Shown piece by piece: positions 60,729-62,797 of a stretch of 64,000 nt of DNA. Numbering within the stretch: the stretch's first letter is position 1; every line of letters begins with the position of its first letter. A program made the translations under genes and the position numbers. This stretch comes from Corallococcus coralloides DSM 2259 (GTDB lineage: Bacteria; Myxococcota; Myxococcia; Myxococcales; Myxococcaceae), in the NCBI RefSeq assembly GCF_000255295.1, contig NC_017030.1, forward strand, positions 7,910,328 to 7,974,327. Reading direction: 5' to 3'. The notes below the pieces were generated by a model. The model was not told where the DNA came from, made no database searches, and was given only the letters and a program-made list of their open reading frames with translations.

Positions 60729-61253
60729 TCACGTCGGCGGAGCGCCCTCCTTCAGCTTCTCCACCGCCACCAGGGTGATGGCCTTCACCAGGGCCTTCGC
60801 GCGGCGTCCCGCGGACGTCTCGCCATGCGGATCCACCTCCACCGCGTTGGCGATGTCCGTGAAGCCCTGCCGCTCGCCCCGGCGCAGGTGCAGCTCGCCC
60901 CGGCCCGTCAGCGCCACGGGGTTGCGCGGGTCTCCGGCCAGCGCGTGCGTGTACTCGGTGAGCGCGTCCTCCACCCTGCCGAGCTTCTGGTACACCGTGC
61001 CCAGCGCCGCGTGCGCCGCGGAGTCCTTCGGGTTCCCCTCCACGAGCCCCTCGAAGAGGATGCGCGCCTCCTCCAGCCGGCCCGCCGCCGCCAGGTCGCA
61101 GCCCACCTGCGCGATGGCCTTCGCCTCCTCGAAGGTCATCCCCTCCACCTCCGCCCAGGTGGTCTCCCCTCGCGCGAACGCCTTCAGCCTGCGCGCCGTT
61201 CCGGTCTCCATCGTCAGTCCCTCGCCGCCTTCGTGCTTGATGATGCGTCCCAT
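60729..61253 (-). CDS. TPR chaperone of LcrH/SycD type
   Basis: The ATG at 61253 (MGRIIKHEGGEG) is preceded by GAGGG; a GTG at 61265 overlapping the upstream stop (GTGA) is also in frame and would add four residues. The 174-residue protein has three TPR units in the order of class II type III secretion chaperones (about residues 44-140): AIAQVGCDLAAAGRLEEARILFEGLVEGNP, SAAHAALGTVYQKLGRVEDALTEYTHALAGDP, and PVALTGRGELHLRRGERQGF. Such chaperones bind translocator proteins. It lies directly downstream of the NolX/HrpF-like gene, exactly the usual translocator-chaperone arrangement, so I infer it serves that protein. Cytosolic. Confidence 0.83.
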   Translation of the reverse strand: MGRIIKHEGGEGLTMETGTARRLKAFARGETTWAEVEGMTFEEAKAIAQVGCDLAAAGRLEEARILFEGLVEGNPKDSAAHAALGTVYQKLGRVEDALTEYTHALAGDPRNPVALTGRGELHLRRGERQGFTDIANAVEVDPHGETSAGRRAKALVKAITLVAVEKLKEGAPPT

Positions 61254-61261
61254 GGCGGCCC

Positions 61262-62797
61262 TCACGCGCTGCGCAGGTTGGAGATGGCCGTCTTCGCCAT
61301 CTCGTTGAACTTCGACGACATGTTGCTCATCAGGTCGAACATGGCCTTGCGCTTCTCCATCAGCGTCTGAAGCCGCAGCTCCAGCTCCTTCATGCTCGTG
61401 TCCAGCTTCGCGCCGCGCGCCTTGTCCGAGTCGCTGTTGCCCAACGTGGCGCGCTCCTCGCGGGCGCTGGCCATCTCGTTCATCACGTCCATCAGCTCGC
61501 CGTCGGTGTCCTCGGCGATGCCCATGAGCAGGGCCTGCACCTTCTGCTCGATGCTCATGTTCGGGTTGTCCACGATGTCGCGCGCCCGCGAGCCGCCCGT
61601 GCTCCGGCCGCCGCCGCTCGACGGCTTCGGCACCGAGTCCAGCGCCGCGTCCAGGTCCTGCCAGCTGGTGACGCCGTCCCGGCCGCCGCCCGCCGCCATC
61701 TCCAGGCGGTGCCAGTACTCCGGGTGGTCCGTGAAGAACTGCGCGGCGCGCTTGAGCGTGGAGGACGCCGCCGGGCTGTCCAGCACCGCCTCCAGGTCCG
61801 CCATCGTCAGCTTGCCGTCCTTCGTCCCCTTCGCCGTGTCGAAGGTGTCCCAGTTCTCGTCCAGCACCTGGAGCGCGTCGGCGTACTCCTTGAGGTCCGG
61901 ATCCACCGCCCCCGAGCCTCCGCTGCCCCCCGGCCGCCCCGTGCCCCCGGTGCTTCCGCCGCCCTGGCCCGGCCGGCCCGACACGCCCCCCTCCGAGCCC
62001 CCCGTGCCGGTGCCCGGCCGCCCCGTCCCGCCGGTGCCCGGCCGACCTGCCCCGCTGCCCGGCCGGGAGCCACCGCCAGTGGTGGGCGGCGCGCAGTCCG
62101 ACGGCGCCGGCTCACAATCCTTCGGGGAGGGGGACGGGCGGCCCGGCCGCTCCGGACGCCCGTACTTCGCGAACTCCGCGGCCAGCCGCTTGGACTCCTG
62201 CTGGAGGCCCATCAGCTCGATGCGGTCATCGTTCATGCCCGGCAGCTTCAGCGTCAGGAGGCTCTTCTTCGCCGTGTCCACCAGTTCGAAGAAGGTGCGG
62301 TTGTCGACGAGGAACCTCGCCGCGTCCCGGAGCGAGGGCGACACGTTCTTGTCCTGGGAGATGCGCTGGAGGTCCGCGTGCGACAGCGAGCCGTCCTTCT
62401 TGCCGTCCAGCAGGTCCAGGTAGCCGAAGTTCGCCTCCAGCGTGCGCAGCGAGTCCGCGTAGTCCAGCAGCTTGGGGTCCAGCGGGCTGCGGCTTCCGGA
62501 GGTGCCCCCCGCCTGCGAAGCGCCCGGCGAAGCGGAGCCCGCATAGCCCGCGCCCGCCTTCGCCGCGTCCTGGGGCGCGCAGTACTCCGTCTTCGCGGAT
62601 GGGTTCTTCTTCAGCTCGTCCGCCACGCCCAGCGCGCCGCTGGCCGCCATCATCACGTTGCCGCTCATCACCCCCGCGGCCGTCTTGATGGAGTTCGTGA
62701 GGACGGGGGGAAGCCCCAGGGCGTCCCCCGCCAGGTCGGCCACGGCGGTCATCGGACCGCCCAGCAGGTTCGCCACGCCTTTCAGGATGTCGAGCAT
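61262..62797 (-). CDS. NolX/HrpF-like protein with two helical repeat modules (type III secretion substrate candidate)
   Basis: The 511-residue protein starts at 62797 (MLDILKGVANLLGG) with GGGAG upstream. Two modules of the NolX/HrpF type are seen: residues ~108-178 (LDYADSLRTLEANFGYLDLL, DGKKDGSLSHADLQ, LRDAARFLVDNRTFFELVDTA) and ~300-386 (LKEYADALQVLDENWDTFDTA, DGKLTMADLEAV, LKRAAQFFTDHPEYWHRLE). A Gly/Pro/Ser linker (GRPGTGGTGRPG-like, ~215-298) separates them. The last 100 residues form a helical region like secreted filament proteins. There is no Sec signal. HrpF/NolX are type III translocators of plant-associated bacteria; here the companion chaperone follows. A role in a type III-like secretion or predation apparatus is inferred. 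Confidence 0.82.
   Translation of the reverse strand: MLDILKGVANLLGGPMTAVADLAGDALGLPPVLTNSIKTAAGVMSGNVMMAASGALGVADELKKNPSAKTEYCAPQDAAKAGAGYAGSASPGASQAGGTSGSRSPLDPKLLDYADSLRTLEANFGYLDLLDGKKDGSLSHADLQRISQDKNVSPSLRDAARFLVDNRTFFELVDTAKKSLLTLKLPGMNDDRIELMGLQQESKRLAAEFAKYGRPERPGRPSPSPKDCEPAPSDCAPPTTGGGSRPGSGAGRPGTGGTGRPGTGTGGSEGGVSGRPGQGGGSTGGTGRPGGSGGSGAVDPDLKEYADALQVLDENWDTFDTAKGTKDGKLTMADLEAVLDSPAASSTLKRAAQFFTDHPEYWHRLEMAAGGGRDGVTSWQDLDAALDSVPKPSSGGGRSTGGSRARDIVDNPNMSIEQKVQALLMGIAEDTDGELMDVMNEMASAREERATLGNSDSDKARGAKLDTSMKELELRLQTLMEKRKAMFDLMSNMSSKFNEMAKTAISNLRSA

Follow-up and report, generated by a model that had tools for sequence, protein, structure and literature searches.

Which secretion system, if any, is served by a translocator-like gene and its chaperone gene when no type III locus lies beside them? 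This question is raised by two minus-strand genes that run in the same direction in a 64,000-nucleotide stretch of the Corallococcus coralloides DSM 2259 genome (hereafter the window; the genome analyzed is a single contig of 10,080,619 bases). P0001 encodes a protein with NolX/HrpF modules and is followed by P0002, which encodes a putative LcrH/SycD-type chaperone. An earlier interpretation made from the DNA letters and their translations, the sequence-only reading, had suggested that P0001 could be a dedicated substrate of the needle-less type III-like apparatus for contact-dependent killing by myxobacteria. We find the type III reading of the pair well supported. With moderate confidence, we propose that P0001 is a needle-associated translocator-type substrate which has P0002 as its chaperone and is probably exported via locus B, one of two type III loci in this genome. 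What is new is the end of P0001, whose last 38 residues belong to a tail family that is otherwise confined to type III loci.

Type III features of the P0001-P0002 pair

A genome-wide search for sctV homologues found two FHIPEP/SctV genes, one in locus A at 7.06 Mb and the other in locus B at 7.73 Mb, and thereby ruled out that the genome is devoid of type III genes. Locus A comprises ATPase, sorting-platform, ring, and export proteins as well as LcrH paralogues; its gene content and its position in a Myxococcus-like genome suggest that it is probably the published needleless type III secretion system (T3SS) named T3SS*. Locus B, a short locus, has the order tail protein-SctI-SctJ-159-aa protein-SctQ-163-aa protein-SctR-S-T-U-V, which recurs in other genomes, and no ATPase, secretin, or chaperone gene was seen in it (L018:7076-16070). 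In the account of Abby and Rocha, nonflagellar T3SS (NF-T3SS) loci of the 'Myxo' kind come in a long and a short form, both without SctF, secretin, tip, and translocon (PMC3459982), and the needle, translocon, and effectors of myxobacterial type III have been described as missing or unknown (PMC10433427; the 2025 Kil paper, PMC12075869). Mutants in T3SS* showed that this system is required for prey lysis rather than for killing as such (PMC12075869). With myxobacterial T3SS* (mxan_2434-2464) and the 'Myxo' long and short NF-T3SS loci as the reference, both loci are present in this genome, and the myxobacterial NF-T3SS is most likely the export system which the pair serves. When every protein of loci A and B was used to search the window, only P0001 and P0002 matched; the sequence-only reading had likewise seen no other type III genes there.

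The two NolX/HrpF modules of P0001 are EF-hand-like and repeat one another: a gap-free alignment of residues 106-176 with residues 299-370, spanning ~71 residues, has a BLOSUM score of 125 compared to a maximum of 56 in 2000 shuffles. P0001 matches Pfam NolX (PF05819) at 1.2e-5 and 25.2 bits, 0.9 bit below the cut-off of 26.1. Across the P0001 family, NolX was matched by 26/35 members (best 1.8e-12) and the HrpK1/HrpF 'translocator' model (PF16937) by 12/35 (best 7.3e-9). Proteins of the NolX/HrpF/PopF/HrpK kind (PF05819, PF16937) resemble P0001 in having a repeated module of ~75-110 residues with EF-hand-like loops and no visible Sec signal; the number of repeats is two or three in HrpF and one in NolX (PMC5483457). 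In P0001, neither a Sec signal nor a transmembrane segment was evident (best 19-residue mean hydropathy, 1.28). Unlike the NolX/HrpF family, P0001 combines these modules with a needle-like C-terminal tail and an adjoining dedicated LcrH-type chaperone gene, and it is found in bacterial predators, whereas that family is found in plant-associated bacteria. Foldseek searches with the whole P0001 model against PDB and viral models returned nothing significant (best 0.26 and 0.015), which was expected because the model is partly disordered; calmodulin chains among the matches were too weak to count. A phmmer search of P0001 against the PDB gave chance matches only, and no P0001 relatives were found on plasmids.

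P0002 matches LcrH_SycD (TIGR02552) with 48.3-48.7 bits, under the equivalog cut-off of 104.8, and the same model is matched by all aligned members of its family. Genome-wide, P0002 takes rank 5 for LcrH_SycD, right behind four proteins encoded in locus A or next to it (7.060-7.083 Mb) and ahead of rank 6 at 43 bits, and it is the sole strong LcrH-like protein outside the locus A neighborhood. The LcrH paralogue of locus A, which passes the cut-off (111.3 vs 104.8 bits), is the closest chaperone paralogue of P0002 (34% identity over its length, 57 bits). AlphaFold predicts an N-terminal helix, three tetratricopeptide repeats (TPRs), and a C-terminal helix (predicted local distance difference test score [pLDDT], 91). 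Foldseek placed IpgC first for this model, with SycD (template modeling score, 0.70-0.82), AcrH, and PcrH near the top. In VIA-align, the best match was the Aeromonas T3SS chaperone complex 3wxx, with Z 17.8 over 148 residues; since ordinary TPR proteins came close at Z 16-17.5, the fold alone is not decisive. The LcrH model matches 64 places in the genome; P0002 as a generic TPR protein was nevertheless rejected, considering that the similarity includes the N-terminal helix and that its identity to the locus A LcrH is 34%. P0002 is like the LcrH/SycD class (SycD, IpgC, PcrH, AcrH) in its full-length fold and in its place directly downstream of a translocator-like gene. It differs in remaining below the equivalog cut-off, in being encoded outside type III loci, and in having a partner in which no classical PxLxxP motif was found.

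These results agree with the sequence-only reading in its account of two NolX/HrpF modules, no Sec signal, and a co-directional gene for a three-TPR LcrH-type chaperone in translocator-chaperone order. The profile matches of the pair are to secreted or translocator proteins and to type III chaperones.

A needle-like tail common to P0001 and type III locus proteins

Two locus A proteins, one of 184 aa and one of 77 aa, have ends similar to that of P0001; the 77-aa protein is present in three tandem copies. A 42-position tail profile, run on the whole 10-Mb genome, hit six places, namely, P0001 itself and five proteins that the two type III loci encode; a 165-aa protein of locus B, absent from the model, was a new match (3.9e-10). 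Because P0001 was part of this first model, ten type III locus proteins were used to build a second profile free of P0001 sequences. This was searched against 17,147 frames taken from loci that total 1.44 Mb, with E-values set for 200,000 sequences. Down to an E-value of 10, its matches were limited to type III locus proteins and P0001 relatives, those in other genera scoring 3e-6 to 4e-5 and the window protein 0.005. A comparison of the P0001 family with the P0001-free profile by hhalign gave an E-value of 1.3e-7 (94%) over 38 columns ending at the C terminus. Thus, the helical, secreted-filament-like end noted in the sequence-only reading can be specified as related to type III needle-locus proteins.

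Against 177,635 distinct PDB sequences, the ten best matches of the P0001-free profile were all needle chains (an EsaG fragment, PrgI, and MxiH), aligned to their very C termini. Each match is weak (best E-value 0.002, the others 0.02-0.3), and it is their unanimity and common register that point to a needle relationship. The best of them is a 43-residue chain of 7y6c, whose file label names a co-chaperone; 7y6c is the EscE-EsaH-EsaG needle complex (PMC9426511), and from its sequence we infer that this chain is a needle fragment. The first tail profile, which included P0001, gave one weak needle-related match in the PDB (0.032). The Pfam needle model (PF09392) has its best genome-wide match in the 184-aa protein (0.012), and of its three other matches, two lie in type III loci; in another genome, it matches two tail proteins of locus A (0.014). 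Compared to SctF needles (MxiH, PrgI, EsaG; PF09392), the tail proteins of loci A and B align with the SctF C termini to the last residue, and the last 38 residues of P0001 carry the signature of these tail proteins. In contrast to SctF, P0001 is six times longer and has other domains, and the locus tail proteins either are extended at the N terminus (mostly 130-184 aa) or belong to the 77-aa tandem copies.

Two tail proteins are candidates for the needle subunit which the literature calls lost: the 165-aa protein of locus B (L018:15573-16070; C1:7.743 Mb in the C. coralloides genome), encoded directly before sctI-sctJ, and the 184-aa protein of locus A (L016:16914-17468; C1:7.083 Mb), both with an SctF-like tail. 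The order of the 165-aa gene, sctI, and sctJ is that of prgI-prgJ-prgK. The 77-aa proteins are encoded in three near-identical tandem repeats of ~502 bp each (L015:17883-19121; C1:7.065-7.066 Mb). Each repeat holds one open reading frame that runs opposite to the locus A genes around it and encodes a needle-like tail. The 'needleless' myxobacterial systems thus appear to keep needle-like proteins.

Locus A or locus B as the exporter

Among 145 genomes of the order, the P0001 family was present in 78 and SctV-type genes in 120. All 78 have SctV, and the family is missing from the 25 genomes without SctV (Fisher 2e-10, not corrected for descent). In a tree of SctV, three types were resolved, A, B, and a third type that is probably flagellar. 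The pair occurs with type B and without type-A SctV in G042 (99% complete), G092 (93%), G122 (100%), and G123, plus the incomplete G138, and it is missing from the type-A-only genomes G125-127. Pair-bearing genomes with a second SctV fetched (about a dozen) contain type-B SctV, which is fragmentary in G139. Locus B of G122 and G123, read directly, carries the tail protein. Since the pair is found in B-only and never in A-only genomes, locus B is the likelier exporter of P0001 and would fit better than locus A, and sharing between the two may be possible. Type-B genomes without the pair exist (G085, G087, and G051); therefore, the pair is an accessory of B. Of the proposal that P0001 is a dedicated substrate of the needle-less apparatus, the type III link was thus retained and the assignment to T3SS* was not.

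That P0001 would instead be a dedicated substrate of locus A, the needleless T3SS* needed for prey lysis in Myxococcus xanthus, seems unlikely to us. Locus A holds the closest chaperone paralogue, an ATPase, sorting-platform genes, and other LcrH-type proteins, the tail is also present in its proteins, and reduced genomes with only locus A encode many NolX-module proteins, some of them fused to enzymes. However, the pair is intact in G042, G092, and G122 and does not occur where type A stands alone. A still less probable alternative is that P0001 is an effector delivered to prey as cargo, its modules and tail acting as export signals only. A NolX module can ride on cargo, considering that such modules precede a GH19-type lytic domain and HExxH-containing C-terminal regions, but no enzymatic domain is recognizable in P0001 by Pfam, its most conserved parts within the genus are its two ends rather than a variable cargo, and LcrH-type chaperones classically serve translocators. 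It is very improbable that the pair is unlinked to type III and consists of a cytoplasmic or periplasmic EF-hand-like protein with an ordinary coiled-coil tail and a generic TPR partner, since, despite the wide spread of TPRs and the location of the genes away from type III loci, the chaperone similarity extends beyond the repeats to the N-terminal helix, the tail profile matches are limited to type III proteins, and the pair never occurs without SctV.

Several points weigh against P0001 as a needle-associated translocator exported via locus B. Its gene belongs to neither cluster: locus B is ~230 kb away and locus A ~900 kb. The NolX match covers the modules alone, with 44/436 profile positions in P0001, and the full-length family is unmatched. 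The PxLxxP chaperone-binding motif was looked for in P0001 and not found. The Pfam needle model (PF09392) stays below its cut-off for all locus tail proteins (0.0076-0.014) and finds no match in P0001 (511 aa, compared to a needle length near 80 aa). The tail of P0001 is linked to known needles indirectly, via the locus proteins. Finally, descent confounds the pattern of presence and absence, and the A-only genomes are all from one genus.

Two further groups of candidate substrates were noticed in other genomes. The reduced Myxococcaceae genomes G125-G127 (2.1-2.7 Mb, ~53% guanine plus cytosine, locus A only) encode many proteins with NolX/HrpK1 modules, for example, at L088:9148-10830, L089:9218-10801, L090:9473-10924, and L091:4464-5750. 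One of these examples has a C-terminal GH19 lytic domain (PF00182, 1.2e-14) and three have HExxH-containing C-terminal regions; they resemble effectors that carry a NolX module for delivery. Locus A of the Myxococcus-like genome G103 encodes a 390-aa DUF1521 protein (L114:5739-6911; PF07481, 2.2e-13) followed by an LcrH-type TPR gene (L114:6938-7477), a second candidate substrate-chaperone pair. In rhizobia, DUF1521 is known as a domain of NopE-like type III effectors.

Architecture of the pair and a proposed mechanism

P0001 starts with an ATG at 62797, preceded by a GGGAG ribosome site, and stops at 61262. The P0002 frame opens at GTG 61265, overlapping the P0001 stop; its conserved start is the ATG at 61211, which has a good ribosome site, GAGGGA, and yields 160 aa. 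Conservation and synteny of the pair span many Myxococcaceae genera and also hold in the sister families f7 and f8. In almost all complete loci examined (several genera, three families), P0002 comes after P0001, and in most genera the intact pair is flanked by the same neighbors, M48 peptidase and YqgF-like genes. In the AlphaFold model of P0001, the modules are confident and the N terminus is poor. Conservation within the genus is highest in the N-terminal 65 and C-terminal 100 residues, and the linker varies. Residues 1-65 are a candidate secretion-signal and membrane-active region. Coordinates of all features are given in Table 1.

Table 1. Features of P0001 and P0002 in the window
Feature	Position	Strand	Evidence
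P0001 coding sequence including stop	61262..62797	-	511 aa; ribosome site; 35 aligned homologues, the majority with the same start
N-terminal region, residues 1-65	62603..62797	-	Hydrophobic/amphipathic helices; genus-conserved (invariant columns); low-confidence AlphaFold helices
First NolX/HrpF module, residues 104-178	62264..62488	-	Pfam NolX at residues 135-178; self-repeat; helix-strand-helix model, pLDDT 80-90
Gly/Pro/Ser low-complexity linker, residues 214-298	61904..62158	-	Length variable among relatives (alignment); disordered in model
Second NolX/HrpF module, residues 299-390	61628..61903	-	Repeat of module 1; pLDDT ~90
C-terminal helical hairpin, residues 416-510	61268..61552	-	Two long model helices, 416-451 and 456-510; pLDDT 58-80
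Needle-like tail, residues 473-510	61268..61381	-	Common to proteins of both type III loci; profile searches, hhalign
P0002, LcrH/SycD-type chaperone	60729..61211	-	160 aa; LcrH_SycD match in 30/30 aligned members; paralogue identity; fold

Based on these features, we propose that P0002 would bind P0001 in the cytoplasm and keep its aggregation-prone helices apart. The export gate of locus B (SctV/R/S/T/U) would then pass P0001 across the inner membrane, as the co-occurrence suggests. The C-terminal hairpin might pack onto or cap a needle-like filament; the tail itself is common to P0001 and the locus proteins, and docking is modeled on hook-associated proteins, whose terminal helices are common to flagellin. 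By analogy with NolX/HrpF, presumed translocon proteins (PMC5483457), the EF-hand-like modules and the N-terminal helices would be displayed at the distal end as translocon components, where P0001 may contact prey. Chaperones of the needle that have a TPR fold bind its C-terminal region (PMC9426511). Because of this, and because P0001 showed no PxLxxP motif, we would guess that P0002 may bind the tail of P0001.

It is tempting to speculate, albeit only tentatively, that the 'needleless' systems assemble cryptic SctF relatives into a needle-like filament and that P0001 is a hybrid tip protein, with a needle-type tail and NolX/HrpF modules, of an injectisome-like device with a translocator used against other bacteria.

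Myxobacterial T3SS have been described as without needle (SctF), translocon, and secretin, and with substrates missing or unknown (PMC3459982, PMC10433427, PMC12075869), whereas the substrate-chaperone pair and the needle-like tail family named here are direct candidates for the missing needle, translocon, and substrates. In a published scenario, SctF was lost in the myxobacterial branch, the earliest among nonflagellar type III systems; no such loss occurred if the tail proteins are relatives of SctF. The apparent presence of needle-like proteins in 'needleless' systems is the most valuable point beyond the original finding. If our reading of P0001 is true, NolX/HrpF-type translocators would extend from plant-associated bacteria to predators of bacteria.
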